Of a DNA stretch of 64,000 nt, positions 16,710-49,465 are shown one piece after another. Every line of letters begins with the position of its first letter. Within the stretch, counting starts at the first letter, position 1. The stretch lies in the IMG/VR virus record IMGVR_UViG_3300024308_000027, positions 16,835 through 80,834 of that record. One strand, 5' to 3'. A program made the translations under genes and the position numbers. Under the pieces are notes generated by a model. The model was given only the letters and a program-made list of their open reading frames with translations, did no database searches and had not been told where the DNA came from. This DNA is from a virus.

Positions 16710-16733
16710 GAGTACATTGCATTCAGTGTACTC
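16710..16733 (+). other. intergenic hairpin H1 of the wobble-stem family
   Basis: Arms GAGTACATTG and CAGTGTACTC, loop CATT. Ten pairs with a T-G wobble at pair 8 between A-T (pair 7) and T-A (pair 9). No T-tract follows, so it is not a standard terminator. It lies 40 nt before the ATG at 16773. Confidence 0.75.
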
Positions 16734-16772
16734 AATGAAAACAATTGTACTTGACAAAAAGAGGATAACAAA

Positions 16773-17084
16773 ATGGAAGCAAAAGAAATTTTAAAGCAAA
16801 TACTGGCGTCAACTTTTACCGTTAATAAAGCTAACGGAACTGTGACTCTGGTTGTGGATCAGGAAGTTATTGATCGTGCTGTTGTGCTGGCTAATACGCC
16901 AGACGTTCACGAATTCACTCTTTACTTTATTGGTGGTAAAAAAGAGGTTGTAAGGGGTGCAACTATTGCAGATGCTTGCAACAAAGCAGGTTACGGCCAA
17001 GGAGCCATATCTGCCTTAGATTTTTACTGCAAAGTTGATGAAGGTAGTTATACCTATGTTGACGGAAACTGGAAAAAAGATTAA
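16773..17084 (+). CDS. conserved phage-type protein of unknown function, 103 aa
   Basis: AGAGGATAACAAA precedes the ATG. The C-terminal half, TLYFIGGKKEVVRGATIADACNKAGYGQGAISALDFY in pieces, resembles a short domain I recall from many phage hypotheticals (G-x-x-x-V-x-G ... A-x-x-x-A-G-Y-G-x-G-A ... A-L-D-F-Y). Soluble, alpha/beta. It follows hairpin H1, which may control it. Confidence 0.75.
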   Translation: MEAKEILKQILASTFTVNKANGTVTLVVDQEVIDRAVVLANTPDVHEFTLYFIGGKKEVVRGATIADACNKAGYGQGAISALDFYCKVDEGSYTYVDGNWKKD

Positions 17085-17096
17085 TTGGAGAAATGT

Positions 17097-17525
17097 ATGA
17101 CCAAACAAAATGTAATGAAACTTACGTCAGAAAACGTGACAGCAATTTTTCTTGATTCTCTTTTTCGTGAAGAGGAAGTTGCAGATAAAGGGCCAATGCT
17201 TGAAGAAGGTACTTATCTTTTAGGTTCAGGTGTTGTCACAAAAGTTGGCTTTCATCCAGAGCGTTGTCGCGGCCACAAAGAATCTGTTGTTGATATGTTA
17301 AATCAACTGGATGATTCTTTCAAAAGAACTGAAGGTGAAACTTTTCTGAATATGTGTGCTGATAAAAGTGGTGCGCTCTGGACTGGCCAACAAAGAATTG
17401 TTGATCAACTTGTATGTCTTGGCGTTGCACTTGAGTTACTGACTTTAACGCCACGGGAAAGAAATTCCAGTTTACCCGGCGGAGTTCCTTTTGTAATGGT
17501 GAAACTTTCTTCTCAAACCGAATAA
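17097..17525 (+). CDS. conserved protein of unknown function, 142 aa
   Basis: The start at 17097 is set by TTGGAGAAATGT. The pattern GFHPERCRGHKESVVDML, ETFLNMCADKSG, WTGQ, VDQLVCLGVA and SSLPGGVPFVMV matches a small family I recall from phages and bacteria (GFxPxRxxxHRxxIxxLLxxLPxxF ... FLNAC ... LPGGMPY). Function unknown. Between hairpins H1 and H2. Confidence 0.75.
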   Translation: MTKQNVMKLTSENVTAIFLDSLFREEEVADKGPMLEEGTYLLGSGVVTKVGFHPERCRGHKESVVDMLNQLDDSFKRTEGETFLNMCADKSGALWTGQQRIVDQLVCLGVALELLTLTPRERNSSLPGGVPFVMVKLSSQTE

Positions 17526-17536
17526 GTTTGTTTGTA

Positions 17537-17559
17537 GCGTACATTACTTTAGTGTACGC
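17537..17559 (+). other. intergenic hairpin H2 of the wobble-stem family
   Basis: Arms GCGTACATTA and TAGTGTACGC, loop CTT, with the same pair 7-9 triplet (A-T, T-G, T-A) as H1. It is 28 nt upstream of the ATG at 17587, and downstream bases are AATCAAAAATTC with no T-tract. Confidence 0.75.
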
Positions 17560-17586
17560 AATCAAAAATTCTTAAAGGAGAATATT

Positions 17587-18012
17587 ATGCAATTAATAAA
17601 TACGTTAAATTTTTTGTTTCTTTCTGAGTTTGGTGATACACATTACTCAATAGAAAAGTCTGGACATCGTGCTGGACTTTTAAGCGAAGCCAGTAGAAAG
17701 GCAATGAATGAAAGTTTTGTTTTGACCGTTAATCCAGAGATATTAACTCAAGATCTTTTCGAGGCAGCCGCTGGAAAAGATCATTGCCCTTACGCACGTT
17801 CAGCCTTAAACTATGCGGCCAAGTATGTGATCTCTGAATTTTACCAAGGTAAATATGATTATGTTGTGTTAGACCATTTACCTGTATTCATTGTTGATGC
17901 GTTTGCAAAAAGTTTGTGGGATAAATACGAAATCAAATCTGCGGTAAGTGGTTTAATCGGGTCTGGTAATATTTTAATGAGTTACTACCCGCATCGTCGA
18001 ATTTTAATATAG
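17587..18012 (+). CDS. unknown protein, 141 aa; distant paralog of the gene at 12434
   Basis: AAGGAGAATATT precedes the ATG. Its C-terminal 55 residues align with the first gene of unit P1 (DYVVLDHLPVFIVD / DYVLVDGIPLFFVQ and a final basic HRRILI / HKRII). The N-terminal half differs. Function unknown; presence in two early-type units suggests a duplicated early effector. Confidence 0.78.
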   Translation: MQLINTLNFLFLSEFGDTHYSIEKSGHRAGLLSEASRKAMNESFVLTVNPEILTQDLFEAAAGKDHCPYARSALNYAAKYVISEFYQGKYDYVVLDHLPVFIVDAFAKSLWDKYEIKSAVSGLIGSGNILMSYYPHRRILI

Positions 18013-18021
18013 GAGAATATT

Positions 18022-18654
18022 ATGAAACCGCATCTTAAAAAACAAGTGAAAAGAACTGCTTTGCCAAAACATATTGAATCTGCTGTTCATATGCCAGCGC
18101 ATGAACTTACTTTGGCTCAAGCACGGGAAATGTTTGAAAAAATTGGTGAGCCAATTCCTGCACCACAAAACGATGGACTTTCTTTAACAGACATAAGTAT
18201 TCCTCCGCAATCATTGGCCCAAAAGCTCGGTGAATGGTACGGTGGTGAGGTTGTAGTAAACGGCTGTTTGCGTAGAGGTGAAATGTTGGTCATTGCTGGT
18301 ACGTCTGACGCAGGAAAATCTCAGCTAAGTAATGTAAGACTTAAACAACTTTTTCCAACTTTGCAATTTGAGGCCGCAAATTTAAAGTCAGATGAGTTGC
18401 TTGCTGAATTTGTATTGCAATACCCCCAATATAAAATAAAGGCAACTGATTCTGAAATTTCTGCTGTTGCGTATTGCAAAAATTTTATTGCAGAACTGGT
18501 GGTGAATGTAGATCCAATGAAAGAAGATCATCGCTACTGGCATACAATAACAATGTTACACACTGACGAACGTATTGATGTTGGGCCATACGCAGCAACG
18601 CCACTTGAGGCAATCCAGCGACATAGTTTGACGTTCGCGGCAAACCTTATATAA
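18022..18654 (+). CDS. P-loop protein with a short, atypical C-terminal part, 210 aa
   Basis: AGGAGAATATT precedes the ATG. Walker A GTSDAGKS spans residues 93-100, after RRGEMLVIA, the usual strand of RecA/KaiC/DnaB-like ATPases. Residues 1-90 are basic then helical. Only 110 residues follow and no Walker B (hydrophobic stretch ending DE/DD) is seen. They look like a separate strand-helix domain (YKIKATDSEISAVAYCKNFIAEL ... ERIDVGPYAATPLEAIQRH). Either a degenerate P-loop fused to another domain or a remnant ATPase. Confidence 0.6.
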   Translation: MKPHLKKQVKRTALPKHIESAVHMPAHELTLAQAREMFEKIGEPIPAPQNDGLSLTDISIPPQSLAQKLGEWYGGEVVVNGCLRRGEMLVIAGTSDAGKSQLSNVRLKQLFPTLQFEAANLKSDELLAEFVLQYPQYKIKATDSEISAVAYCKNFIAELVVNVDPMKEDHRYWHTITMLHTDERIDVGPYAATPLEAIQRHSLTFAANLI

Positions 18655-18681
18655 ATTTTTTCTTTTTAAGAGGATAGAATT

Positions 18682-19146
18682 ATGGAAACTTTTTGGTTTT
18701 TAGTTGACGGCCTTGTTCAACTTTTTGGTTGGCTTTGTGTTGCTTTTGTTGCATTCATCTTGTTATGGATGATTTGGGATTACCTGAAAATATCTTGTGT
18801 GATGTTCTTTGTGTTGTTACGTAACGTCTGCTTAAAGAAAGACTATTTGAAAAAGCATGGCTACAAAGTTTTCTGGCTTACGTTTTTAGGTTGCTTTAAA
18901 TTCAGCAATTTTACTGGTGCAAGTGGAGGCACAGTTCATTATGAATTTAAAGGTTGTCCAGCTGATCTTTTCAGAATTAAATTTGACTTCCAAAATTTTC
19001 TACCTAAGTGGACTGTAACAAAGAATCATAATATTTCAGCAAACTATTCGGTTACAGCTGCTGACTTGATTTCTGAAAACATAGGAGATTCTTCAGATAC
19101 CGCAAAAAGTTTGAAAGAAGAATTGTTGAACAACGATCAGAATTGA
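18682..19146 (+). CDS. membrane protein, 154 aa
   Basis: AGAGGATAGAATT precedes the ATG. Residues 5-50 form two closely spaced hydrophobic helices (VQLFGWLCVAFVAFILLWMIW and ISCVMFFVLLRNV). The rest is soluble with strands, probably cytoplasmic given the following lysines. Function unknown. Confidence 0.78.
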   Translation: METFWFLVDGLVQLFGWLCVAFVAFILLWMIWDYLKISCVMFFVLLRNVCLKKDYLKKHGYKVFWLTFLGCFKFSNFTGASGGTVHYEFKGCPADLFRIKFDFQNFLPKWTVTKNHNISANYSVTAADLISENIGDSSDTAKSLKEELLNNDQN

Positions 19147-19197
19147 ATAAACTTTTCGCGGCCATAGAAAAACTTGAATCAAATGTAAGGACGATAA

Positions 19198-19479
19198 ATG
19201 GAAACCCTTTACTTCTTTTATAGTGAAAAACAAAAAGCAATTAAGCAAGTAATTGCAAAACAGAATAACCACAAAGTCAATATTAACCATGTTGTGGACG
19301 CAAACGGTGTTATCCATGAATACACGCTTGCAACTAAATCTAGGACAACAACCGCAAATTTTGATGACCTTGTTTTTCTGTGTGAAGCAACTATGGCCTG
19401 TGTTATCAGTAATGGTTTTCCACAAGGACACTGGGCCAAAGAACACATGCACAAATTTAATCTTGGAGTAAGCAAATGA
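19198..19479 (+). CDS. unknown protein, 93 aa
   Basis: AAGGACGATAA precedes the ATG. Small, basic, soluble. Residues 20-50 are strand-like (HKVNINHVVDANGVIHEYTLATK). It overlaps the next start by 4 nt. A 51-nt gap upstream holds no clear signal. Not recognised. Confidence 0.72.
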   Translation: METLYFFYSEKQKAIKQVIAKQNNHKVNINHVVDANGVIHEYTLATKSRTTTANFDDLVFLCEATMACVISNGFPQGHWAKEHMHKFNLGVSK

Positions 19480-19799
19480 ATATAATGTATTTTGTCTTAG
19501 CTATTCCAGCCATTATTTTTGTGCTTGGCCTGTATAGAGTATTGAGTGTTTGTTTGCATCAAGATCGTACTGGCGCATTAACCATTCGTGTAGGCTGGTC
19601 GAACTATGTCATTCGCAGATCTAGTGAAACTGGGAATCTTTCTGTTTACCGAATAGATGATGATTTTTGCTACGATGAAATTTTGGTTGATAGCAAAAAG
19701 TTTGAAACCTACGTCATAGATCTAGTGTTCACACATTTTAAAGATGTGATGCCGGATCAGGCTAAGACCAAACGCTTCTTGCGTAAATTTTACTGGTAA
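19476..19799 (+). CDS. single-pass membrane protein, 107 aa; tandem paralog of the next gene
   Basis: The ATG overlaps the previous stop (AAATGAA). One N-terminal transmembrane helix (residues 4-24) precedes a domain with IRVGWSNYVIRR, KKFETYVIDLVFTHF and a basic end KRFLRKFYW. These correspond to IRVGLSHYRFTR, KKLAEYLTRLIDDNF and KRWLRKFL in the next gene. Function unknown. Confidence 0.78.
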   Translation: MNIMYFVLAIPAIIFVLGLYRVLSVCLHQDRTGALTIRVGWSNYVIRRSSETGNLSVYRIDDDFCYDEILVDSKKFETYVIDLVFTHFKDVMPDQAKTKRFLRKFYW

Positions 19800-19810
19800 G
19801 GAACTTTATA

Positions 19811-20146
19811 GTGGACTATGTATTTCTTACACTTATCGTTTTGATGTTTGCTTGTCTAATCTACAAACTTTTTACCGTCCGAATTTTATTTCAACGGAGG
19901 TTAGGTGAGCATTTTTATTACATACGTGTCGGATTAAGTCACTACAGATTTACCAGACACAATTGCGCTTTAGGTGTTGTGTACAAACATGATGCTCACG
20001 ACTTTAGTAAAGCTGTTCCAATTGCCGACAAAAAGTTGGCTGAATATTTAACGCGATTAATTGACGACAACTTTCCGCCAGAAGGTCGCTATGATCCAAC
20101 TATTGTTGTGAGCCGTGTTAAACGCTGGCTACGCAAATTTCTTTAA
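19811..20146 (+). CDS. single-pass membrane protein, 111 aa, GTG start; tandem paralog of the previous gene
   Basis: GTG start at 19811 with AAGGA 8 nt upstream; no ATG is available before the transmembrane helix (residues 3-20). The soluble domain matches the previous gene block by block, including the final Arg-rich helix. A recent-looking duplication with diverged sequence. Function unknown. Confidence 0.76.
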   Translation: MDYVFLTLIVLMFACLIYKLFTVRILFQRRLGEHFYYIRVGLSHYRFTRHNCALGVVYKHDAHDFSKAVPIADKKLAEYLTRLIDDNFPPEGRYDPTIVVSRVKRWLRKFL

Positions 20147-20158
20147 GGGGAATTAAAA

Positions 20159-20962
20159 ATGTCTAAAGGTTTTGATATACTGTTTTTAATTAGTCGTGCT
20201 TTGGAAGAAATAACAAAAGTTGTTGACGCCAAAGTTTTAATCAGCTGCATGAATGATCTTGAAACAGCTGAACAGCGTCAAATGTTAGAAAAGCTGATGA
20301 AGGATTCTATCATAGGTAGTTTAACAAAAGATCCGGTATTCACTGAATCGTTTGTAAATCAGATTTTCGATGGCCCAACCCTTTCTATGGCCTACAACTA
20401 TCTTAAGTTAAATCTCAGATTAGAATGTGAGAAACTCAAGATGTTAGAAAAGTTTCAAACACATCAATCTGAATTGACTGGCACTGAATGGAACTTGACC
20501 ATAGAAAAAACTATGAGCATGATCAGCGCTAAGAATCCAGAGCCGTTCTGCAATGCTATGCAGCATGTGCTGAATCAATGTGCTTCTTTGCGTGAAGTAC
20601 GAACGCTTTATCTGTATTTAGAAAGAGCATTGAAGTTAGGTTCCTTTACCTGCCGAAATTCAAAAAACATGAAGTTGTATGTGTTTGACGATAAAACAAA
20701 CCAACTATTGCAGGACATAAATTCAAAGTGCATATCTAAAGCCTTTGAGGAGTACGGTCAGAAAGAAGTCCGGTTGGTTTTTCAATTGATTATTGAAGAT
20801 CAAACTAAAGCTTCATGGGAACCCGACGACTTTATTGTAAGGGATTACCTTATAGTAAAGCTAACAGCTAACACAACTGAAACTTTGGTTATGTATGCGT
20901 ACAATCCAGCGTCAGCTAGTTTTCCAGAAGCAGAGTGGCTGACTCGCCTCGAAAAATTCTAA
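20159..20962 (+). CDS. unknown protein, 267 aa; distant paralog of the gene at 42620
   Basis: AAGGGGAATTAAAA precedes the ATG. Mostly helical. The C-terminal half aligns with the 277-aa gene in unit P3: LYLYLERALKLGSF / FIWYIERSISLGTL, then CISKAFEEYGQKEVRLVFQLI / EIARVFEEHGTDAVELVFDFT, then ASWEPDDFIVRDYLI / KSWAVHDYFI. Function unknown. Confidence 0.8.
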   Translation: MSKGFDILFLISRALEEITKVVDAKVLISCMNDLETAEQRQMLEKLMKDSIIGSLTKDPVFTESFVNQIFDGPTLSMAYNYLKLNLRLECEKLKMLEKFQTHQSELTGTEWNLTIEKTMSMISAKNPEPFCNAMQHVLNQCASLREVRTLYLYLERALKLGSFTCRNSKNMKLYVFDDKTNQLLQDINSKCISKAFEEYGQKEVRLVFQLIIEDQTKASWEPDDFIVRDYLIVKLTANTTETLVMYAYNPASASFPEAEWLTRLEKF

Positions 20963-20973
20963 GGAGCATTGCT

Positions 20974-21351
20974 ATGGATTATGAAAGGTATAAAAGCATA
21001 GTAATAGCCATAGCAAAAGCTTTTGGCTGTTTTGCAGCTGTTACTTGTTGTGCTTTGTTGTATACAGAAGTTTGCCGCGAAACAGTTAGCAAACTTTTTG
21101 TGGATGCTTGGCTTACCGTCAGCATTATGATTTATCTTGTTCTGGTGTCTGCATTAACATGGTTTAATACAAAATATTTGTTTAGCAGACGCAAAAGAAT
21201 TCAAGAATGTGCTGCGGGTCAGCTGGATAAACTCACAAAGCAATTAGATGTTGAATGGCATGAGATAAGAATCTTTGACATTTTTACAAGTCTTATGGTT
21301 GTTATCACTATTCTGCAATTAGGTGCAATGTTTGTTAGAAGGATAGTCTAA
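20974..21351 (+). CDS. membrane protein, 125 aa, three transmembrane helices
   Basis: The ATG at 20974 follows AAGGAGCATTGCT; the frame runs further upstream without a site. Hydrophobic helices at about 9-30, 42-62 and 98-118, with a charged cytoplasmic-looking segment (SRRKRIQECAAGQLDKL) between the last two. The stop overlaps the next start by one base (TAATG). Confidence 0.78.
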   Translation: MDYERYKSIVIAIAKAFGCFAAVTCCALLYTEVCRETVSKLFVDAWLTVSIMIYLVLVSALTWFNTKYLFSRRKRIQECAAGQLDKLTKQLDVEWHEIRIFDIFTSLMVVITILQLGAMFVRRIV

Positions 21352-22205
21352 TGTACGTTTCAACTTTTGAAGAACTCAATCAACTACGGATTGCCAAAGA
21401 TGCGTATGAAGATGCTGTTATTTGGGATCATGATAAAAATAAAGAGGCAAGAGAAAAACATCTTGCCTTAGTTCAATCTAAATATCCAGATCTCACATTT
21501 TCGTGGACATCGGCTTATCAAGGTGATGGAACTTTGCCACTATTGATAACAAGTTCCTCTTACAATCTGGATAGTGTAAATCATGAGATAGGTCACGCAC
21601 TGCATTTTCTGCATGTTAAACCTAAGCGTCTTGGTTTTCACAACTTTGCTTTTGATCTTGCAACTGAGTTTGTTTTTGATCGCAACGTGAACGCAGTTAA
21701 AACAACTAAGCCTGTAGAAAATGAATTGGCTGCAATTGCAATTCAAATGCGATTAAATGAAATCTGCGGTATTCCAGCTAAAATGAATCGTGCAGTTATC
21801 TACGGTCTTATTGACATGATCGTTAATGACTTCAGGTTAGAGGGTTGCCAAAACATTCCGGTTACTCGCTACCATACGCGCAGAAAACTTTACTCTTATT
21901 TAAAAGGCAAGGTTCGTTTTATAAACAAAAAGATTGAGAAACTAAATAAAACAGTGCCTCAACCTACACCAGCTGATCTTGATGATTCTGTTTATAGAGA
22001 ACAGCTTTTAAAGTTGTGTGCCCAACGAAATGCGATAGAGGCTCAATCTACTAAAATCTATAGCCAGCAATCTAGGCAGCATGAAATGGATCGCTACAAC
22101 TGGTGCATTAAAAAATTTGAACAACTTCTGAATGTGTACACTTTGGAATTTGTTAGTTCATTACTCAGCCAATTACCAAAGGCATTATCTGAATTAAGGA
22201 ATTAG
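21351..22205 (+). CDS. zinc metalloprotease-like protein (HEIGH motif), 284 aa
   Basis: HEIGH at residues 78-82 in SVNHEIGHALHF, with a candidate third ligand Glu106 in FDLATEFVFDR: the HExxH plus downstream Glu arrangement of gluzincin-type peptidases. The C-terminal 100 residues are helical and basic. There is no signal peptide, so it would act in the cytoplasm. Substrate unknown. A structural, non-catalytic HExxH cannot be excluded. Start overlaps the stop of the membrane protein before it; the SspB-like gene follows after 1 nt. Confidence 0.6.
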   Translation: MYVSTFEELNQLRIAKDAYEDAVIWDHDKNKEAREKHLALVQSKYPDLTFSWTSAYQGDGTLPLLITSSSYNLDSVNHEIGHALHFLHVKPKRLGFHNFAFDLATEFVFDRNVNAVKTTKPVENELAAIAIQMRLNEICGIPAKMNRAVIYGLIDMIVNDFRLEGCQNIPVTRYHTRRKLYSYLKGKVRFINKKIEKLNKTVPQPTPADLDDSVYREQLLKLCAQRNAIEAQSTKIYSQQSRQHEMDRYNWCIKKFEQLLNVYTLEFVSSLLSQLPKALSELRN

Positions 22206-22206
22206 T

Positions 22207-22668
22207 ATGAATATTTTTCAATCCACAAAAGTTTCTCGCATTATGCAAATTTGTGATTCTGTTCGTACAGGTAAAAGCCGTGTGCGAATGACTTTTCTTA
22301 TTAAAGCCGCTGTCGCAGGTGAAGATCCACAGGCAGCACCTGATATTCTTGTGGCAAAAAAATTGAATGTCTCACCAAATTTAATGGCTAATCCAACTGT
22401 AGATCGTGAAGGAATTCTACACGTTTTTATTCATCGTGGTGCGTGTCCAGATCTATTGATCGATGAAGAGTTTGTTACCGGTTATGTGACAGTAAACAAA
22501 GCACCTTGTCACTTCCAAGTACCAATCGGCTGTGTTCTTCAAATAGAAGATCTCACGCTTGGTTTGTGTGCGTCGTTTGAAGTTGATATGAATCTTTTCA
22601 TTGGTGAAAATCAGCCAGTAGTTGAAGAAGTAGCTAAGCAAAAAACACATTTGAGGGTTGTAGAATGA
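22207..22668 (+). CDS. SspB-like ClpXP adaptor candidate, 153 aa
   Basis: The C-terminus THLRVVE resembles the ClpX-binding tail of E. coli SspB (ALRVVK), set off by a charged linker (NQPVVEEVAKQK). The core also follows the SspB fold order: PDILVAKKLNV, a strand pair GILHVFIHRGACPDLLIDEEFVTGYVTVN in pieces (SspB GQIVLNIAPRAVGNLEL ... FNARF), then CHFQVPIGCVLQIED (SspB RQVSVPLAAVLAIYA) and an acidic stretch. SspB tethers ssrA-tagged substrates to ClpXP. A phage copy could redirect that protease. Identity is by-eye alignment against recalled sequence. Overlaps the next start by 4 nt. Confidence 0.6.
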   Translation: MNIFQSTKVSRIMQICDSVRTGKSRVRMTFLIKAAVAGEDPQAAPDILVAKKLNVSPNLMANPTVDREGILHVFIHRGACPDLLIDEEFVTGYVTVNKAPCHFQVPIGCVLQIEDLTLGLCASFEVDMNLFIGENQPVVEEVAKQKTHLRVVE

Positions 22669-23150
22669 TAGTCTTGTATGATGCTTCAAAAAGTTTACAG
22701 TTAATTGCACCGAATCCAGAAGCCATTGCTTTTAGTCAGCCTTTATTCGCGTTCAACAATTACGAGGAATTAGTAGAAGAACTGCGAAAACTTTTGGTGT
22801 TGAGTCCTGATATTTGTTTTGCTGCTGTAGTAAGTGGCAGACTTTTTACCATTCGTAAATTGATTGCACATGCAGCTCTTTATGTAGATCACTTGACCAG
22901 CGGTGATTATGAAGATCGTTATTGTCTATCAAATGTAGATTTGGCTGTACGTGCGATTGAAGAATACAAAACAACTGGCGAAGTTCGTTATTGGCAAAAG
23001 CACCATAATCAAAGATTGCGGGTCATAGGTGATCTGATGTTTCATGAAAGTGATCCACCTATTCCAGAATGTTCTTTGCGTTGTGTTCCGTGGAATACAG
23101 TCGAACTTAAAAAACAATATCCATACGATTCAATTCTGGATAAATTTTAG
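22665..23150 (+). CDS. unknown protein, 161 aa
   Basis: ATGA-coupled to the SspB-like gene. Mixed alpha/beta with a hydrophobic strand SPDICFAAVVSGRLFTI near the middle and two Cys close to the C-terminus (PECSLRCVPW). Coupled synthesis suggests a linked role, but no family is recognised. Confidence 0.78.
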   Translation: MIVLYDASKSLQLIAPNPEAIAFSQPLFAFNNYEELVEELRKLLVLSPDICFAAVVSGRLFTIRKLIAHAALYVDHLTSGDYEDRYCLSNVDLAVRAIEEYKTTGEVRYWQKHHNQRLRVIGDLMFHESDPPIPECSLRCVPWNTVELKKQYPYDSILDKF

Positions 23151-23159
23151 AGGTAACTT

Positions 23160-24239: not shown

Positions 24240-24251
24240 GAGGAAAGCAGA

Positions 24252-25494: not shown

Positions 25495-25503
25495 GGGAAT
25501 ACG

Positions 25504-40647: not shown

Positions 40648-40706
40648 TCCAAGTGTGTCAAAAATACCTATTGATGGGACAAGCGGTTTTTGCTATAATG
40701 GCTACA
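40642..40706 (+). promoter_or_regulatory. early-type promoter P3
   Basis: TATAAT at 40694-40699 in TGCTATAAT. -35 TTGATG at 40671-40676, 17-nt spacer. The upstream box at 40642-40664 is identical to that of P1 and again ends 30 nt before the -10. Unlike P1 and P2 there is no strong hairpin between box and -10. The leader to the ATG at 40732 is only about 25 nt. Confidence 0.88.
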
Positions 40707-41073: not shown

Positions 41074-41080
41074 GGCTAGT

Positions 41081-41629
41081 ATGAAAAAAGAAAAGTATGT
41101 TGGCCAGTTTTTTAGTACCAAAGAAATTGAAACATCTGGTGATTTTAACCAAAGGCCGATCTTTGAACTCGAAAATGAAATCGGCACTGTTACCCGCATT
41201 TACACCAAAGGTCTGGAAACCAAACTTTGCGAGGTCGAAGGTTGGTCACAGATTAATTGGGTTTACATTGGCGAAGATTGCGATATGAATGATGTTTTTT
41301 CAGTCGCAACTGAAGTCGAAAGAAAACAAATCATGCCATTGCTTGAGAGAAAAGAATTTGGTGATCTGTTTATGTATGTACCAAAAGTAGAAGTTAAATC
41401 TATGGCCGCAAGCTTATTTCCAGATCAACCAAAACCGTTGATTAAACTTTTCAATCTGGTTGATAAAGATCGTCACGAAAAGATTGAAGATCGTGGCCAG
41501 TTTAGCTTGCGTCAGATTTTTGATGCAACTGACTGGGATGATGTAGAGACTGATGCAATCAGTGACATGAAAGTCGGCGATGTGTTGAAATTTGATGAAG
41601 GTAAGTTGATTGTCACACGTACACAATAG
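41081..41629 (+). CDS. unknown protein, 182 aa; related to the next gene
   Basis: GTGAGGCTAGT precedes the ATG. The N-terminal half ends with KLCEVEGWSQINWVYIGEDCDMNDVFSV, equivalent to LLKVEGWAELEFVYVRTTSEWIPLFNL (in pieces) of the gene at 41691. The C-terminal 70 residues are extra. Acidic and soluble. Followed by hairpin H3. Confidence 0.78.
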   Translation: MKKEKYVGQFFSTKEIETSGDFNQRPIFELENEIGTVTRIYTKGLETKLCEVEGWSQINWVYIGEDCDMNDVFSVATEVERKQIMPLLERKEFGDLFMYVPKVEVKSMAASLFPDQPKPLIKLFNLVDKDRHEKIEDRGQFSLRQIFDATDWDDVETDAISDMKVGDVLKFDEGKLIVTRTQ

Positions 41630-41639
41630 TTGATTAATA

Positions 41640-41664
41640 GCATGTATTCTCTTTGAGTACATGC
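41640..41664 (+). other. intergenic hairpin H3 of the wobble-stem family
   Basis: Arms GCATGTATTC and GAGTACATGC, loop TCTTT. Ten pairs with A-T, T-G, T-A at pairs 7-9 as in H1 and H2. It lies 27 nt upstream of the ATG at 41691. Confidence 0.75.
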
Positions 41665-41690
41665 ACTTTAGTTTTCTAACGGAGGATAAT

Positions 41691-42069: not shown

Positions 42070-42102
42070 TAATCTTTTCAACCTGTTACCGGAGTAACCG
42101 CT

Positions 42103-42324: not shown

Positions 42325-42342
42325 ATTGCTAAGGGGAAATAA

Positions 42343-42537
42343 ATGCAATTAATGGTGATCGAAGATACGCACTTACAAGGTGCTGTGTGGCGATACGACT
42401 TCAATGACGGCAGTAGTGTAGAAGTTGCCGAAGTCTTGAGTACAAATCCACCAAGCTTGAAGAAAGTTTCTGGCGATTTTACACCCGAACGAATTGCCGC
42501 TATTGAAAAGTACGGCTTTCTAAAAGTTCAACCTTAG
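42343..42537 (+). CDS. unknown protein, 64 aa
   Basis: AAGGGGAAATAA precedes the ATG. Small beta-rich domain (AVWRYDFNDGSSVEVAEVL) with a short helix (TPERIAAIEKYGFLKV). Soluble. Hairpin H4 follows 10 nt after the stop. Not recognised. Confidence 0.72.
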   Translation: MQLMVIEDTHLQGAVWRYDFNDGSSVEVAEVLSTNPPSLKKVSGDFTPERIAAIEKYGFLKVQP

Positions 42538-42547
42538 TGTATTTTGA

Positions 42548-42571
42548 TTGGGCATTCTTTTGAGTGTCCAA
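42548..42571 (+). other. intergenic hairpin H4 of the wobble-stem family
   Basis: Arms TTGGGCATTC and GAGTGTCCAA, loop TTTT. Pairs 7-9 are A-T, T-G, T-A; an extra G-T occurs at pair 5. The outer stem sequence is unlike H1-H3, so structure rather than sequence is kept. It is 48 nt before the ATG at 42620. Confidence 0.75.
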
Positions 42572-42619
42572 AATTAACTACTCTAGTTAAAAGCAACCCG
42601 TTCCAAAGGAGGAACCGCT

Positions 42620-43453: not shown

Positions 43454-43463
43454 GGAGTACACT

Positions 43464-44060
43464 ATGAAAGTAGAAATCAAAGATTTATTTGACGCCAACA
43501 GCGTTGAAAGTGCATTAAGTTTTTTATTTAATGCTACAAAAGAAGATCGATTAGGCAATACCATTAAAGAAGTCGAGCGTGTTGCCTACCTAAGTTTTAT
43601 AGGTGCATACGATGCAACAATTCGCAGACCCGACAAAACTGAGTATGCCGAACAAATGATCGATGCCATTAAAGTTGTGCGTTTGTGTGCAACAGGCATC
43701 GAAAGCATTGGTTGCTTAACATATGGCCAAAAAGTTGCTGCCTTTAACAAAGTGTCTTTAAAAACCGAAGTATCATTGGTTTTTATTTGGGTAGCCAGTG
43801 TTACAGAATACGAATTAAATTGGGGCAGTCGTCCTGATGGTTACGTATTGGCAATAGAACCTGAAGATTTACAGACGTTGTTGAAATCTGATAACGGGCT
43901 TCATCTTTGCGGCAATTCAACAATCTTTTCTAAGGCCAATGAATTTTACCGTAGAGAGCTTACAGAAGATGGCCGCGAAACAATGCGTAAAGCACTGGCC
44001 GAGGGCAAACGTGCAATCTGGATCGATAAGATTGATAAACTTATTAAGCCAGTAACATAA
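43464..44060 (+). CDS. unknown protein, 198 aa
   Basis: AAGGAGTACACT precedes the ATG. Helical N-terminal half, central strand EVSLVFIWVASVTEYELNW, and a charged helical C-terminus (DGRETMRKALAEGKRAIW). Ten nt to both neighbours. Not recognised. Confidence 0.78.
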   Translation: MKVEIKDLFDANSVESALSFLFNATKEDRLGNTIKEVERVAYLSFIGAYDATIRRPDKTEYAEQMIDAIKVVRLCATGIESIGCLTYGQKVAAFNKVSLKTEVSLVFIWVASVTEYELNWGSRPDGYVLAIEPEDLQTLLKSDNGLHLCGNSTIFSKANEFYRRELTEDGRETMRKALAEGKRAIWIDKIDKLIKPVT

Positions 44061-44070
44061 GGAATTTACT

Positions 44071-44517
44071 ATGAAATACGTAGTTGCTGTTACTAAAGGT
44101 GAACTTTCTCGTAAAGTTCCTTTGATTATGCCGAATCAATTTGTTCACGCCGAAATGTTTAAAATTCTAAAGCAGATGATCCGCGAATCTTTTGATGAAG
44201 ATTGCGAAATTTTTTCGGCTGGTGAAATAAGTTTCTTTGGCTCGTCTATTGTTTGCAGTGGTAAAAGTTCAACACTTGGAGTCAGTTCACATCCAGATGA
44301 TGCAGAGCTTATCAAGTGTTATGACTATACAATGGGCGTGGACATTGGTGGCGTTAGCTTTAGTTCGATTGTAAATAAAGCTGGATCAGTTGTCGAACTT
44401 ACTTCTGATAGTATTGTTGAACTTGCTGACGGTCAATTCAGAAAAGTTGGCGATCTGATGGAAGGCCATGTTATTAAAGTCGGTGATAGCTTTGGCGTTA
44501 TCACTGTTCTGGATTAA
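44071..44517 (+). CDS. unknown protein, 148 aa
   Basis: AAGGAATTTACT precedes the ATG. Beta-rich (VGVDIGGVSFSSIVNKAG, VVELTSDSIVELADGQ and GHVIKVGDSFGVITVLD), suggesting a barrel or beta-sandwich. A single pair of Cys lies near residues 70-85. Not recognised. Confidence 0.76.
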   Translation: MKYVVAVTKGELSRKVPLIMPNQFVHAEMFKILKQMIRESFDEDCEIFSAGEISFFGSSIVCSGKSSTLGVSSHPDDAELIKCYDYTMGVDIGGVSFSSIVNKAGSVVELTSDSIVELADGQFRKVGDLMEGHVIKVGDSFGVITVLD

Positions 44518-44527
44518 GGATAAATTT

Positions 44528-44734
44528 ATGGATCTTTTTCCACACCAAAAGAAAACAATTGAGTTCTTGAAGAACGCAGCCGATACCGCTTTTTTTATTC
44601 AGCGCACTGAGCCTTTACCGACAGATCAACTTTCTGTTGTTATTGCGAAAAAGCGGCCTGAATCTTCCGGTAAACTCAAACTTATTATTGACTGTAATAA
44701 GTCAGTTTTATCAGAAGAGACTGATAAAAAGTAA
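44528..44734 (+). CDS. unknown protein, 68 aa
   Basis: Start at 44528 set by AAGGATAAATTT. Helical FPHQKKTIEFLKNAADTAFF followed by strands (SVVIAKKRP, KLKLIIDCNK) and a Lys-rich end. Soluble. Not recognised. Confidence 0.7.
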   Translation: MDLFPHQKKTIEFLKNAADTAFFIQRTEPLPTDQLSVVIAKKRPESSGKLKLIIDCNKSVLSEETDKK

Positions 44735-44742
44735 GGCAATAA

Positions 44743-45381
44743 ATGGCGGGACTTACCCGCCTTTCTTTTATGGATAGAATGATGCAAGAAAAAGAAAAAT
44801 CAAAGTTTGCTCGTGGTTGCACTAATTTACCAAACTACGTAACGAAGGCACTTTCAAAAGAAACTATTAAACTTTTGTCAACAAATGGTCATGGGCTTTC
44901 CTTTCCAGACAAAGGTTATTTGCAAGTTCGTTTAGTGCGTGAAGGTGTTCGATATGGAACGCATTTTAATTATGCTAAACATGGCGGAATACAAGCAACT
45001 GTAGATCACGCTATTCAATATTACAAACAATTATTGGTAGATATTCCTTATGTTCCAACTGTAAAAGGTGGCGGCTTCAACAACATTCGTTTTTGTACCA
45101 AAACTAATTCACGTAACGGCAGAACAGAATATTACCATGTTGTTACCTATATCGATCCGGTTTCTGGAAAAAGAGCCACCAGAAGTTTTTATCATGGGAC
45201 GAATCCTCCATCGGCAGGTCAATGGCTTCACGGCCAACATACAGCACTTTACTTTCAGATTGAACAGCAAAGAATAGCTGATCAGTTTGGAACAAAGATC
45301 AATCACAGAAAGTTTGATAGCTGGAAAACCGTTCGCTTGTATTGGGAAGGCGCACCAGCCTTAGACTACGATTCAATTTAA
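44743..45381 (+). CDS. putative AP2-like DNA-binding protein, 212 aa
   Basis: Two regions look like AP2/integrase-type beta-beta-beta-alpha units: LQVRLVREGVRYGTHFNYA followed by the helix TVDHAIQYYKQLL, and YYHVVTYIDPVSGKRATRSFY followed by TALYFQIEQQRIADQFG. AP2 domains are common in phage homing nucleases, but no HNH motif is present. The first codons overlap a terminator-like hairpin; ATG 44743 has AAGG upstream, while the alternative ATG at 44770 has none. It ends VRLYWEG, like the C-terminus at 23160. Confidence 0.45.
   Translation: MAGLTRLSFMDRMMQEKEKSKFARGCTNLPNYVTKALSKETIKLLSTNGHGLSFPDKGYLQVRLVREGVRYGTHFNYAKHGGIQATVDHAIQYYKQLLVDIPYVPTVKGGGFNNIRFCTKTNSRNGRTEYYHVVTYIDPVSGKRATRSFYHGTNPPSAGQWLHGQHTALYFQIEQQRIADQFGTKINHRKFDSWKTVRLYWEGAPALDYDSI
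44745..44769 (+). terminator. terminator-like hairpin overlapping a start region
   Basis: GGCGGG, loop ACTTA, CCCGCC, then TTTCTTTT. It starts 2 nt inside the annotated reading frame of the 212-aa gene. It may be a real terminator for the upstream genes, with the 212-aa gene beginning at 44770, or a coding stretch with dual use. Confidence 0.65.
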
Positions 45382-45392
45382 GTGAGAAACCA

Positions 45393-45884
45393 ATGAAATT
45401 AATTACACCAAAAGATCTTGTAATGCTGTCACCTGATAAAACTTTAGAGTTGTTAAACAATAAACTTATTGAAGTAGTGACAGACAATTGGGTTCAGCGT
45501 GAGCGCCAGTCAGATTTGTTAAGTTTAGATCTAATGGCCGCCACTCCATTGAGTGTAGCCATGTTTCAACACAAAGAATATTTGACTGAAAAGTTTATTG
45601 ATGCTGGTTGGACGAAAGTTGAGATCGGTCACAGTGAACTTGAAGGTCATGTCAGTATTACTATTTCAAATAATCCACTTGAGAAAAATAATACGGCTGA
45701 AGATGTACGTAGCTTTGAACTGGTTAATAGTGATCAACAGCGTTGGGTTCGTTCACTCAAGGGACTTCAGGAAATCTTAGCTTTGACTGAATTAGATCTG
45801 TACTCAATAGACTATTTGGAGAAGGGCTGCTCTTATAAAAATTTAGGGCCAACAAGTTGGTATGTGATAACCCGATTACATTAA
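45393..45884 (+). CDS. unknown protein with a GW-type domain, 163 aa
   Basis: The ATG at 45393 follows AAGTGAGAAACCA. Residues about 60-95 (HKEYLTEKFIDAGWTKVEI, then VSITISNN) resemble REKVKAHYLSLGWVKVTV / IINITLWK in the product at 51152. Helical N-terminus. Last gene of unit P3. Function unknown. Confidence 0.76.
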   Translation: MKLITPKDLVMLSPDKTLELLNNKLIEVVTDNWVQRERQSDLLSLDLMAATPLSVAMFQHKEYLTEKFIDAGWTKVEIGHSELEGHVSITISNNPLEKNNTAEDVRSFELVNSDQQRWVRSLKGLQEILALTELDLYSIDYLEKGCSYKNLGPTSWYVITRLH

Positions 45885-45903
45885 AAACTGTTGAAAGTAA
45901 CTG

Positions 45904-45965
45904 AACTGATCGAGGTGTGTCAAAAACAGCTATTGTAGGTACATACTATTTTTGCTATAATAGGC
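45904..45965 (+). promoter_or_regulatory. early-type promoter P4
   Basis: TATAAT at 45956-45961 in TGCTATAAT. -35 TTGTAG at 45933-45938, 17-nt spacer. The upstream box at 45904-45926 is identical to that of P2 and ends 30 nt before the -10. The AGGCACAT after the -10 is also shared with P2. Leader to the ATG at 45989 is about 20 nt. Confidence 0.88.
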
Positions 45966-45988
45966 ACATCTTAACAAGGAGACAAATC

Positions 45989-46222
45989 ATGTCATTAGCT
46001 AAAATGTTCGTAGGTCAAAAAGTTGTTGTTTCGTTTCGTGATGCACCAGACCATGATGGTATCGTAATTGACTTTGATAAAAGCGAGGTCACACGCGCAC
46101 TATCAAAAGGAGGCGACGTATCAATTCGTGTTCTGTTGAAAAATCCGAACACCGGAAAGTTCAGTCAACATTCAGTAGTTCAATCGCAGATAAGCCAATT
46201 CGGTTCAGCTGTAGAAGTTTAA
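45989..46222 (+). CDS. unknown beta-rich protein, 77 aa
   Basis: First gene of unit P4; AAGGAGACAAATC precedes the ATG. Strands KMFVGQKVVVSFRDAPDHDGIVIDF (in pieces) and VSIRVLLKNPNTGKF suggest a small SH3-like barrel. An intrinsic terminator follows 6 nt after the stop, so this may be a one-gene early transcript. Function unknown. Confidence 0.78.
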   Translation: MSLAKMFVGQKVVVSFRDAPDHDGIVIDFDKSEVTRALSKGGDVSIRVLLKNPNTGKFSQHSVVQSQISQFGSAVEV

Positions 46223-46228
46223 TAAATA

Positions 46229-46264
46229 AGGTCGTGTTGTCTTAGGATCGCACGACCTATTTTT
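46229..46264 (+). terminator. intrinsic terminator after the first gene of unit P4
   Basis: AGGTCGTG, 14-nt loop, CACGACCT, ATTTTT. Perfect 8-bp stem with T-tract, only about 270 nt from the P4 start. Downstream genes then need read-through, antitermination or another promoter. Confidence 0.85.
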
Positions 46265-46279
46265 GATCTGGAGAATATT

Positions 46280-46780
46280 ATGAAAAGTTCTAAAAGTAAA
46301 CCAACTAAAGCAGCAAAAACTAGGTTGGTAGAAAATCCTGACTACATACAGCTTTTGAAAGAAGCGAAAAGCGTTTCGTATAACCAAGCTTTAAGTTCTA
46401 TTGTAAAGTTGTTACATACAGCACAACGACTGAAAGAAACAGCAGTAAAGTTTGATTCTAAAACAGGCAAGCCTGTAAGATTTATTACAGCGGAAGATGA
46501 ATCTTCATTTCCAAAGTATCTCTTCTTTATGCCTGATAGCAGTATGGGAATAGAAGTTCACAAGTCGGTTGCTAAAAAGTTGACGGCTTTGTTGAATAAA
46601 CTGGAAGAATTAAATGGATCTATTGTTATACGTGATGCCGAAAAGGAGGACTCGCAAAACTTGGCCACGATAGTTATGGAAAGTATTTCAACAGGCGGTG
46701 GACATAACAGCATGACAACTTATTCCAATGCTTTGGTTTTCCGTTCAATATTATTAGAAGAATCTATTGATATTTCATAA
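46280..46780 (+). CDS. unknown protein, 166 aa
   Basis: GGAGAATATT precedes the ATG. Lys/Ser-rich basic N-terminus (KSSKSKPTKAAKTRL), helices, then a strand region FPKYLFFMPDSSMGIEVH and a Gly-rich STGGGHNSM loop. Soluble. First gene after the P4 terminator. Not recognised. Confidence 0.78.
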   Translation: MKSSKSKPTKAAKTRLVENPDYIQLLKEAKSVSYNQALSSIVKLLHTAQRLKETAVKFDSKTGKPVRFITAEDESSFPKYLFFMPDSSMGIEVHKSVAKKLTALLNKLEELNGSIVIRDAEKEDSQNLATIVMESISTGGGHNSMTTYSNALVFRSILLEESIDIS

Positions 46781-46793
46781 TAGGATTTATACT

Positions 46794-47084
46794 ATGTCAA
46801 TGTCTAACCAATCGGTTGCCTTTGTTGCAATAATCAATGTCGTATGGATTGCTGTGCTCGGCCTTACAATGTTGAACAAAGAAAAGCGAGAACAAACAGA
46901 AAAGTTTGTTGCGTTTCGTGAAGCCATTCAAACATGCACCACAAAAGACTTTCCAGAAGATCCTGCAATTTGCTTTGATACTGAAAGACTTATGGAAAAT
47001 CGCTTGTCAACTTGTGCGGCGCAAAAAGAAGCAGCTTGCATGAATCGTATGAAATTGATTATGGATTCACATTTAGTAAAATAA
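46794..47084 (+). CDS. single-pass membrane protein, 96 aa
   Basis: The ATG at 46794 follows TAGGATTTATACT. Transmembrane helix at residues 6-24 (SVAFVAIINVVWIAVLGLTM), then a soluble, probably periplasmic part with four Cys (QTCTTK, AICFD, STCAAQ, AACMNR) that could form two disulfides. Function unknown. Confidence 0.76.
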   Translation: MSMSNQSVAFVAIINVVWIAVLGLTMLNKEKREQTEKFVAFREAIQTCTTKDFPEDPAICFDTERLMENRLSTCAAQKEAACMNRMKLIMDSHLVK

Positions 47085-47095
47085 GTTGAATTCTA

Positions 47096-47120
47096 GCAGA
47101 CATTTTCTAAAAGTGTTTGC
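47096..47120 (+). other. intergenic hairpin H5 of the wobble-stem family
   Basis: Arms GCAGACATTT and AAGTGTTTGC, loop TCTAA. Pairs 7-9 are A-T, T-G, T-A, with an extra G-T at pair 4. Preceded by TTCTA, as is H6, whose arms are nearly identical. No T-tract follows. Confidence 0.75.
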
Positions 47121-47133
47121 AGTGAAATCAGTT

Positions 47134-47150
47134 TTGTTCTGATATAAAAG
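47134..47150 (+). promoter_or_regulatory. possible extended -10 promoter
   Basis: TGATATAAA (TATAAA at 47143-47148) in the 154-nt gap before the 420-aa gene, the largest gap in the window. It matches an extended -10 but no convincing -35 lies 16-18 nt upstream. The rest of the gap shows only hairpin H5 and A/T-rich sequence. Confidence 0.3.
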
Positions 47151-47238
47151 TTAAGTAATAATAGTTTGCCGACTTTTGTTACACAAAAAGTAAATTGCGT
47201 GAATCATTTGCAGTTAATTTTAACTTAAGGAAACAAGT

Positions 47239-48501
47239 ATGCTTAAAGATTTTCGTATGCCTCTGGACGCCCGTGAATTTTCACGTATTAAAGAATTAAA
47301 TCACAAAGGAAAATTAAAGAGAATATTTTGTGTAAAAAGCGAAATGATGTTTAGAATAACTTTATTTCCAGAAGTTGCTGCATTCATCAATGAGGCAGTA
47401 AATTCCGAAACAATGATGCGAACACTTATAGATCTCCCTGATGAATTTTCGTATCCAGCCGATATGTACAAATTAAACTATTTTGACTGTGACGAGTCTC
47501 ATGATTTAGCCCATAGTTTAGAGAGATTTTTAAAGAAAATTTTAAATTTCGAGTTAGGAGTGCAACTGGAAAATGTGTACAAGACGGCAATAGCTTATGT
47601 TAAAGCTTGTTGGTCTAAGCCTCCATACAGTTTTTTAGCATCTTTGGATTCAGATCCAGATCCTGATTCAGTCGAAGATAAATACACTGAAATAAAACTT
47701 ATTATTCTACATAGAATAGTTGCTCTATACATGGGTAAGATAAGTGAATTTCTAGTGGATAATAGAAAATCTAAATTAACAAAATTACAAAAACTATTTC
47801 TGGAAAATTATTTTTTTATTAATGGTATGTTAGATGCCGGACTAAGAATGTACAATGCTTATCCAGATAAAACACGCGCTGTCATGTCTTTCAGTGAAGT
47901 GAGTTTTAAAAATAGTGTTTTTAATGAAAAAACTATTAAAACTTTAAAGGATAAAATTGGTTCGCTTCGGTTTAAAATCAAAAAACAACGCGATCAAATG
48001 TCTGACTGGTTTAGTCTTTTCTTAGATAGTTACATTCAACATTTAAGCAGAATTAATATCGCAAGTTTTTACGAATACGATCCTGTTGATTTGGGTGCTT
48101 ACATAATAAGTCCAAGTGCTGAAGTAATAAGCTCAAATGTTTATACTGAATTGACAAAAGCTATACCTTTTTTCTTCAATAACCGCGATTTTAAGGAAGT
48201 AGAGGCTCAAGTTTTTTATGGGTGTTCTAATAAATCGATGCGCGGTGAACTGGACTATTGTTTGGAATACAGAGAAGCTGAGGAGAAATGTCATTGGACG
48301 GCAGACGAAGAATATGAGTATGCAGATTTTGGAACAATAATGTATGAAACCGAGCTGCCTTCTCACATATATCTATCCAAAAAAGATAGTGCTGAAGTGT
48401 TATGTATAACATCATATAACGGAAGATATTATTGTGATTTCTTCAAGTTAAGTGCTGATAAAAAATCTAAATTGAACCTCCAACCAGTCTTGCTTTACTA
48501 A
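47239..48501 (+). CDS. unknown protein, 420 aa, possible independent cargo gene
   Basis: AAGGAAACAAGT precedes the ATG. Helical in its first 270 residues with an acidic insert SLDSDPDPDSVEDKY near 140, and a Cys/Trp/Glu-rich stretch EAEEKCHWTADEEYEYADFG near 350. Its codon use looks more A/T-rich (many ATA, AAA, TTT) than neighbours, and it has the longest upstream gap with a possible own promoter. Together this suggests a later acquisition. Not recognised. Confidence 0.78.
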   Translation: MLKDFRMPLDAREFSRIKELNHKGKLKRIFCVKSEMMFRITLFPEVAAFINEAVNSETMMRTLIDLPDEFSYPADMYKLNYFDCDESHDLAHSLERFLKKILNFELGVQLENVYKTAIAYVKACWSKPPYSFLASLDSDPDPDSVEDKYTEIKLIILHRIVALYMGKISEFLVDNRKSKLTKLQKLFLENYFFINGMLDAGLRMYNAYPDKTRAVMSFSEVSFKNSVFNEKTIKTLKDKIGSLRFKIKKQRDQMSDWFSLFLDSYIQHLSRINIASFYEYDPVDLGAYIISPSAEVISSNVYTELTKAIPFFFNNRDFKEVEAQVFYGCSNKSMRGELDYCLEYREAEEKCHWTADEEYEYADFGTIMYETELPSHIYLSKKDSAEVLCITSYNGRYYCDFFKLSADKKSKLNLQPVLLY

Positions 48502-48521
48502 ATACCCTAGAGGACAATAGA

Positions 48522-49121
48522 ATGACTGATGTATTTTTGAAAATGAATTTACCTTCATCGCTTCAAGAAATTCTTGAAGCCACTGATTACGAAGGTTCAG
48601 CAATGTTGGACATACTTAAGCAAGGTATGTCTCAAATTGATCCAAGGCTTTCTCTGGCAAACCGTACAATTTTGGTTTGTGAAGGTATTCGCTACAATCC
48701 ATACAAGCCTGAACTGCGAAAAAGTTTGGCATGTTTTACTTTTACAGGCCATGAAGTTTGTGCTTACGGTGAAAAACAAAAAGATGGTACTTTCGATATT
48801 CGTGATGAATTCGCAAGACTTACCATTCAAAAATTTGCTGATCCTCAGTTGGTAGCAATGCTTATTCACTCGTTCACTTACAAAGACATTGCATATACTC
48901 AGCAAGAGCCTTCATGTAATGTGAGTACAAAAGTTTATTCACCTTTGTACGAAATGGTGTTTGAACGTGTAAATCATTGCGTGTTATTTGATGATGACAA
49001 ACGGCCACAACAGGTCATTCATTACTATCACCCATTTATTTATTTGGGTGGTAATAAATCAGCCGAACTCTTGCATCAAAAAGTTGGCAGTTCTTTCCGT
49101 GAAATGATGGCGAATCGTTAA
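48522..49121 (+). CDS. unknown protein, 199 aa
   Basis: GAGGACAATAGA precedes the ATG. Mixed alpha/beta with Cys scattered through strands (TILVCEGIRYNPY, LACFTFTGHEVCAYGEKQ) and an aromatic VIHYYHPFIYLGG segment. Soluble. Not recognised. Confidence 0.78.
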   Translation: MTDVFLKMNLPSSLQEILEATDYEGSAMLDILKQGMSQIDPRLSLANRTILVCEGIRYNPYKPELRKSLACFTFTGHEVCAYGEKQKDGTFDIRDEFARLTIQKFADPQLVAMLIHSFTYKDIAYTQQEPSCNVSTKVYSPLYEMVFERVNHCVLFDDDKRPQQVIHYYHPFIYLGGNKSAELLHQKVGSSFREMMANR

Positions 49122-49129
49122 GGAGATTT

Positions 49130-49432
49130 ATGAGCGAACAAGTTAAAATAACTGATCTAAAAAGTTGGTGGGCGGCATTAACAGATCATGTGCTTCCGAA
49201 TCTGGAAGAATATAAAAAGATCAAAAGTATTCGCCACCATGTTGTTGAAGTTCAACGCTTAGGTGCAGAAATTAAAGCAGCCAATTCTTACACCAAAGAA
49301 AAAGCTCTTGAGATTTCACAAGCATTACATGGAGTCTGGTTTTACGCGCCCGACAATCCTTCAATGTTTGATATGCCTTGCTGGTTTATCATTTGCGATT
49401 TATGCTCTGAAAACTGGGTGATTCACGAGTAG
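49130..49432 (+). CDS. conserved-looking small protein, 100 aa
   Basis: AAGGAGATTT precedes the ATG. Helical, ending ALHGVWFYAPDNPSMFDMPC then FIICDLCSENW. The W..xPDNxS...P...xCDLCSE pattern recalls short phage hypotheticals that I cannot name. Followed by hairpin H6. Confidence 0.74.
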   Translation: MSEQVKITDLKSWWAALTDHVLPNLEEYKKIKSIRHHVVEVQRLGAEIKAANSYTKEKALEISQALHGVWFYAPDNPSMFDMPCWFIICDLCSENWVIHE

Positions 49433-49442
49433 TTTATTTCTA

Positions 49443-49465
49443 GCAGACATTTTGTAAGTGTCTGC
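49443..49465 (+). other. intergenic hairpin H6 of the wobble-stem family
   Basis: Arms GCAGACATTT and AAGTGTCTGC, loop TGT. Pairs 7-9 are A-T, T-G, T-A. Outer stem matches H5 except that pair 4 is G-C instead of G-T. It lies 35 nt before the ATG at 49500, and no T-tract follows. Confidence 0.77.

Follow-up and report, generated by a model that had tools for sequence, protein, structure and literature searches.

A 64,000-nucleotide stretch of viral DNA (positions 16,835 to 80,834 of IMG/VR record IMGVR_UViG_3300024308_000027; hereafter the window), part of an 80,834-base virus record, carries six intergenic hairpins, H1 to H6, which are very probably RNase III processing sites of the T7/T3 kind, set in polycistronic operons of a jumbo phage. 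Cistron-separating RNase III sites are textbook knowledge for T7; for jumbo phages, we found no report of such sites in the open-licence literature. The initial annotation of this DNA had offered three roles for the hairpins. RNase processing is strongly favoured, because a covariance model built from jumbo-phage copies only picks out the RNase III sites of T3 and T7; for the other two, translational regulation and antitermination, we found nothing pointing there.

A conserved two-part hairpin between cistrons

The initial annotation had described six hairpins with 10-bp stems, and both RNAfold and pairing counts bear this out. All six fold at the positions listed below, with energies of -11.1 to -14.5 kcal/mol when 5-nt flanks are included (RNAfold gives H5 an eleventh pair). 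The 60 cells of the six upper stems all hold standard pairs, with two-sided changes at seven of the ten pairs. The annotated signature, A-U, U·G and U-A fixed at pairs 7, 8 and 9 with compensatory changes elsewhere, likewise holds: these are the only invariant pairs in H1-H6, and the covariation score of the upper stems was reached by none of 500 shuffles. A scan of the window restricted to 10 pairs with ATT/AGT gave H1-H6 as its only + strand matches, plus one - strand match that falls inside an ORF. The 5' flank (AGT...) is also conserved among the six.

This description was correct but stops at the upper half of the element. When flanking sequence is included in the fold, each hairpin proves to be the top of a longer two-part hairpin: an imperfectly paired lower stem (about 12 pairs) is followed by an asymmetric 2x3 internal loop, the 10-bp upper stem and a terminal loop of 3-6 nt. 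The internal loop has 2 nt on its 5' side and 3 nt on its 3' side in most copies.

Additional copies occur in two other phage records, one of the same phage species (G001, 319,518 bases) and one from a 286,584-base relative (G002). A covariance model of the six window copies, comprising the upper hairpin and short flanks (R1), matched unseen copies in G002 at E-values of 7.5e-6, 7.5e-5 and 0.0015, so the family exceeds chance. The covariance search that the initial annotation had suggested thus found further copies in the real genomes of related phages. Covariance E-values are rough throughout.

Six window copies, one from G001 and five from G002 make up a set of twelve. When aligned, 85.6% of their cells are paired, compared with 64.5% after shuffling (98.3% in the upper and 75.0% in the lower helix), two-sided changes affect 19 of the 22 pairs of the extended structure, and its covariation is 0.637, compared with 0.245 for shuffled and at most 0.197 for slid alignments. 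Pair 8 is U·G and the third 3' internal-loop nucleotide is U in all twelve; the 5' internal-loop nucleotides are UA in ten, and the tenth pair below the loop is A-U, likewise in ten. The terminal loop differs in both length and sequence across the set.

The lower stem contains 20 G·U versus 2 A·C combinations, and the upper stem, leaving out pair 8, contains 3 versus 0. This excess points to the sense-strand RNA as the molecule that folds. All twelve copies read in the direction of their neighbouring genes and, together with the covariation and the G·U bias, this gives good support to the structured sense-strand RNA proposed at the outset.

In the window, each of the six hairpins lies between co-directional open reading frames (ORFs). 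The stop codon of the upstream gene falls inside the lower stem in all six, and the upper stem begins 10-11 nt past it. From upper stem to the next start codon we measured 26-48 nt, or 118 nt for H5 (25-50 and about 120 nt in the initial annotation), and, as noted there, no T-tract is seen by eye after the stems. A search against Rfam (4227 families) gave no match in the window at the gathering score.

The full elements are listed here with their scores under model R2 (the twelve-copy model described in the next section) and with cuts predicted from the alignment to T7.

16696..16748, + strand: H1 full element; upper stem 16710-16733; internal loop UA/AAU; R2 60.3 bits; predicted cut after 16736; TAG of ORF 16442-16699 in lower stem
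17523..17574, + strand: H2 full element; upper stem 17537-17559; internal loop UA/AAU; R2 61.4 bits; predicted cut after 17562; TAA of ORF 17097-17525 in lower stem
41626..41679, + strand: H3 full element; upper stem 41640-41664; internal loop UA/ACU; R2 52.4 bits; predicted cut after 41667; TAG of ORF 41081-41629 in lower stem
42534..42586, + strand: H4 full element; upper stem 42548-42571; internal loop GA/AAU; R2 56.9 bits; predicted cut after 42574; TAG of ORF 42343-42537 in lower stem
47082..47135, + strand: H5 full element; upper stem 47096-47120; internal loop UA/AGU; R2 54.7 bits; predicted cut after 47123; TAA of ORF 46794-47084 in lower stem
49429..49480, + strand: H6 full element; upper stem 49443-49465; internal loop UA/GCU; R2 63.2 bits; predicted cut after 49468; TAG of ORF 49130-49432 in lower stem

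A jumbo-phage model recovers RNase III sites of T7 and T3

Model R2 contains the twelve jumbo-phage copies only and was built before any comparison with T7. We ran it on the whole T7 and T3 genomes with filters off. The T3 record annotates ten RNase III recognition sites, and seven of these (R0.5, R1, R0.3, R1.1, R18.5, R4.7 and R6.5) are the best seven of eight matches at E≤10, with E-values from 0.0004 to 0.56; the eighth (E 3.7, - strand) is not an annotated site. The six T7 matches at E≤10 all fall on the + strand; their positions are 36811, 5842, 847, 1422, 13848 and 3097, and their E-values run from 2.3e-5 to 4. We take these to be R18.5, R1.1, R0.3, R0.5, R4.7 and R1, names that fit the neighbour genes of the annotated T3 sites.

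Folded at what we take to be their cut positions, T7 sites show the same plan, with upper stems of 9-13 bp; RNAfold places a 2x3 loop in R0.3, R1 and R1.1, and no comparable loop in R1.3. According to PMC8708148, R1.1 is cut at nucleotide 5887. The second T7 match (5842) contains this nucleotide, which ends the 3' strand of the internal loop and is equivalent to the U found there in all twelve jumbo copies.

The conserved details are shared to different degrees. Pair 8 is U·G in seven and C-G in five of the 12 T7/T3 sites recovered by R2, counts in which U·G is biased upwards because these rows were picked by R2 score, and a G stands on the 3' arm in all of them. All 12 also have A-U as the tenth pair below the loop. 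The end of the upstream gene is overlapped by four of the ten annotated T3 sites, versus all six window elements.

With default filters, R2 was run on T4, lambda, K1F, phiYeO3-12 and SP6 (340,478 bases) and gave three matches at E≤5, one each in phiYeO3-12, K1F and SP6, which means that default filters lose many true sites; T4 and lambda gave none at this threshold. The phiYeO3-12 match is the annotated putative R1. The K1F match (NC_007456, 36441-36509) begins at the end of gene 18, before 18.5. No RNase III site is annotated at this place, which is the position where T3 has R18.5. The SP6 match (NC_004831, 2114-2174) lies between SP6p05 and SP6p06, again with no annotated RNase III site.

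A third model, R3, combines the twelve jumbo copies with eight T7/T3 sites (three T7, five T3); a different alignment was set aside and replaced because one of its matches was antisense and another lay within an ORF. At E≤5, R3 gave 24 matches in 1,026,450 bases, partly compared with annotation: seven in T7, eight in phiYeO3-12, five in K1F, three in SP6 and a weak one in Y3 (E 3.2), with none in T4, lambda or XacN1. It matches the K1F site at 45.8 bits; the SP6 place found by R2 is not listed by R3, which matches other SP6 places.

These rankings bear on a different function, in which the hairpins would serve a phage-encoded RNA-binding protein (a stabiliser or a translational repressor) as operators, comparable to that of T4 gp43, and would look like RNase III sites just because both are long irregular hairpins. 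A protein might recognise the invariant U·G of pair 8 together with the conserved AGT...UA flank, and the copies do precede a ribosome-binding site and start codon. However, the family model ranks RNase III sites above all else in the T3 and T7 genomes, T4 has such operators yet gives no match at default filters, and the terminal loops of the twelve copies vary in length and sequence. We therefore consider operators highly unlikely.

Proposed processing of the transcripts

If H1-H6 are RNase III sites, the stop-codon region of each transcript, together with the spacer leading up to the following ribosome-binding site, would fold into the irregular hairpin, and a dimer of the host enzyme would bind the two stacked helices. 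The cut would come directly after the invariant U on the 3' side of the internal loop, separating upstream from downstream cistrons in operons that are probably early. The upstream message would then end in the upper hairpin, which would protect its 3' end, and the next gene would keep a short leader of 23-45 nt (115 nt for H5). We assume a host enzyme because a search with PF14622 found no phage-encoded RNase III in any of three phage records; the same search was positive in 9 of 14 control genomes. The elements are irregular hairpins of about two helical turns, with the internal loop about 10 bp below the terminal loop.

Several points weigh against this assignment. The first concerns the copies themselves. 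Hairpin shape by itself is unspecific: a shape-only scan gave 13 matches on the + strand of the record that contains the window, where pair 8 was U·G in six, exactly H1-H6, and three on the - strand, none with U·G, but U·G also occurred in 9 of 43 matches in G001 (six of them known copies) and in 9 of 29 in G002 (two known copies). The three weakest rows of the alignment (G001 67566, G002 276781 and 276359) were retained because their structure looked right by eye, a choice that biases the pairing counts upwards.

The second concerns the comparison with T7-like phages. R1 finds nothing in T7 or T3, R2 misses R1.3, R3.8 and R13 in T3 and, at default filters, four of the five annotated phiYeO3-12 sites (800-7500), and three of the seven T7 matches of R3 are in its own training set. 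The internal loop of R1.1 is described as 4/5, not 2x3, in PMC6121014; loop size also varies among T7 sites in RNAfold. PMC6993053 notes contradictory reports of one or two cuts in R1.1, and in PMC8708148, forcing full pairing in R1.1 leads to a double cut. A double cut would remove the hairpin and destabilise the upstream message.

Copies in related phages

G001 shares blocks of 92-99% identity with the window's record over most of the latter's length and is probably complete, because it has a 127-bp terminal repeat. The carrier appears to be a jumbo tailed phage of about 319 kb. The large terminase (TerL) of G001 has 983 amino acids and belongs to phrog_17415; the best listed TerL matches from annotated phages, about 40% identical, come from Dickeya, Erwinia, Yersinia and Alcaligenes phages (best 30 of 182 records), and the TerL of G002 is 63% identical. 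Positions 15001-35000 of the window had no DNA match among annotated phage records. The G001 TerL gene (L028 14314-17265, - strand) has an apparent intein-like insert (CVTGDT ... HN-SGKS) at what we take to be the Walker A motif. At 1972-3231 of the window, a 419-amino-acid ORF matches the thymidylate synthase profile (266 positions) in two stretches, possibly also reflecting an insert.

R1 finds all six copies in the window's record and five of them in G001, where H3 is absent. It also finds an extra G001 match at 67566 (E 0.56), on the opposite strand among genes of that strand; a G003 copy is the same site and was not counted. This extra copy (67546-67566; L019 7546-7566) trails a six-codon ORF behind GGAG (ATGAAGGCACTTCTTATCTAA), with 10 nt between stop and upper stem, as in the window. 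In G002, two weaker copies (E 0.52 and 5.4) join the three mentioned above. From eight R1 matches there we used five, dropping the contig-start repeat and those at 225322 (E 2.8) and 164330 (E 3.5). The dropped repeat is a second instance, 127 bp long, of the copy at E 7.5e-5: G002 1-127 repeats 282240-282366, with promoter motif and hairpin, possibly because of an overlap in the assembly, which would hint at two contexts behind this promoter and hairpin. A further G002 candidate at 266924-266991 (R2 22.7 bits, E 0.11; R3 30.6 bits, E 0.0015) lacks U·G by eye and was not counted; if real, it breaks the U·G invariance.

Beyond these genomes, matches were few. One IMG/VR pattern scan matched only G001 and another only G001 and G002. 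R2 gave two weak matches at E≤5 in six reference phage records and three at E≤1 in the records of 19 of 32 TerL-derived loci (G017, G018 and G019), and these negatives are weak, as the first-look filter used misses all T3 sites and five of six T7 sites. After inspection of the sequences, the G018 and G019 matches were not accepted as copies. A full scan of XacN1 and Y3 with R2 at default filters gave five matches at E≤5, of which the XacN1 matches of 24.4 and 22.3 bits are both strands of a palindrome between convergent genes and the remaining three score near 17 bits; R3 recovered none of the XacN1 matches.

The distribution of copies among relatives raises the idea that they are mainly recombination modules. 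PeSLs of T4-type phages are strong early promoters fused to stem-loop terminators. The near-identical G001 lacks H3 along with the gene in front of it, the two sides being joined within a shared ribosome-binding-site sequence:

41081..41629, + strand: small ORF, 182 amino acids, directly upstream of H3; missing from G001

The two weaker G002 copies (276781 and 276359) are identical over 39 nt and lie 422 bp apart, and among the genes downstream of H1-H6, only the one after H3 matches a gene behind a G002 copy (blastp E≤1e-3). All three observations fit a gene and its trailing hairpin moving together, as proposed for PeSL cassettes. The compensatory changes, G·U bias and fixed orientation argue instead for selection on RNA, and the stems of six copies in the same genome differ, unlike those of recently spread repeats. 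A main role as such modules also seems highly unlikely to us; shuffling may simply ride on the sites, a possible side effect that need not compete with RNase III processing.

Gene context and promoter-like motifs

The ORFs flanking each hairpin may share one transcript. A promoter-like motif precedes three pairs of hairpins:

15610..15655, + strand: promoter-like motif TGTGTCAAAAATA-N-TTTTGCTATAAT, pattern match; upstream of H1 and H2
40654..40699, + strand: promoter-like motif TGTGTCAAAAATA-N-TTTTGCTATAAT, pattern match; upstream of H3 and H4
45916..45961, + strand: promoter-like motif TGTGTCAAAAATA-N-TTTTGCTATAAT, pattern match; upstream of H5 and H6

The pattern TGTGTCA...TATAAT occurs on the window's + strand at 12332, 15610, 40654 and 45916. 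Two hairpins follow each of the last three motifs before the next match, none lies between 12332 and 15610, and each hairpin lies at least about 1 kb downstream of its nearest motif. Judged from sequence, the motifs could be early promoters whose transcripts contain the hairpins. Further copies of the motif are present in G001 and G002. In the form TGTGTCAAAAA-~25 nt-TTTTTGCTATAAT, the spacer at 12332 and 15610 holds a terminator-like inverted repeat ending in T's by eye, a terminator-inside-promoter arrangement reminiscent of the PeSLs of T4.

Stable stems after stop codons would also suit factor-independent terminators without a normal U-tract, and a terminator scan of 35001-55000, which covers H3-H6, flagged H3 (tail ACTTTAGTTT) as terminator-like, leaving H4-H6 unlisted. 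This function is scarcely credible: no U-tract is seen by eye, the upper stem of one of the five G002 copies lies about 30 nt past the TATAAT of a promoter-like motif, where termination makes little sense, and a terminator needs neither the conserved loop-near pairs nor the conserved lower stem.

Other candidates were rejected. The R box of integron attC sites, GTTRRRY at the 5' end, fits only H5 of the six by eye, and for attC or REP-like single-stranded DNA hairpins, the divergence of stems between copies and the G·U bias, which points to RNA, argue against. The covariation speaks against a DNA operator, and so does the T·G, which stays asymmetric throughout. For PeSLs, the hairpins have no fused promoter in the window and no U-tract.

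Implications of a probable second set of sites

With its freely varying stems, this second, diverged set of probable RNase III sites separates fixed features from those owed to the shared history of the T7 group. The fixed features are the wobble at pair 8, whose G lies on the 3' arm, the U that precedes the cut and the A-U below, and the analysis provides nucleotide-exact cut predictions and a search model for such sites. It is conceivable, though on balance doubtful, that two unrelated phage lineages settled on one detailed RNase III code, with G·U eight above the loop, U before the cut and A-U ten below. If so, natural cut sites in phage mRNA would carry positive identity elements for RNase III, and models R2 and R3 could be used to find such sites across phages and bacteria in general.

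Comparison with known systems

PeSLs resemble the H family in being small intergenic stem-loops among small genes that differ between close relatives. They differ in that H1-H6 have no U-tract and stand far from the nearest promoter motif; the separate motif TGTGTCAAAAATA-N-TATAAT is more PeSL-like than the hairpins are. The T4 gp43 and RegA operators are likewise RNA signals at phage translation starts, but gp43 targets its own message, RegA sites are rich in A+U, and T4 gave no R2 match at default filters.

The RNase III sites of T7 and T3 share the most with the H family. Both are irregular two-part hairpins between cistrons, with an upper stem of about 10 bp and an asymmetric internal loop ending in U on its 3' side; the A-U ten pairs below the loop and the G on the 3' arm at pair 8 are common to the H family and the recovered T7/T3 sites. 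The differences lie in the stems, which are A/T-richer and variable in the H family and near-fixed as AAGG.../...CCUU in the recovered sites, in U·G at pair 8 (12/12 versus 7/12), in the 2x3 loop versus the 4/5 described for R1.1 in PMC6121014, and in the carrier, a jumbo phage with a 983-amino-acid TerL of phrog_17415, unlike T7 and T3. Across these differences, one covariance model finds both the H family and the T7/T3 sites.

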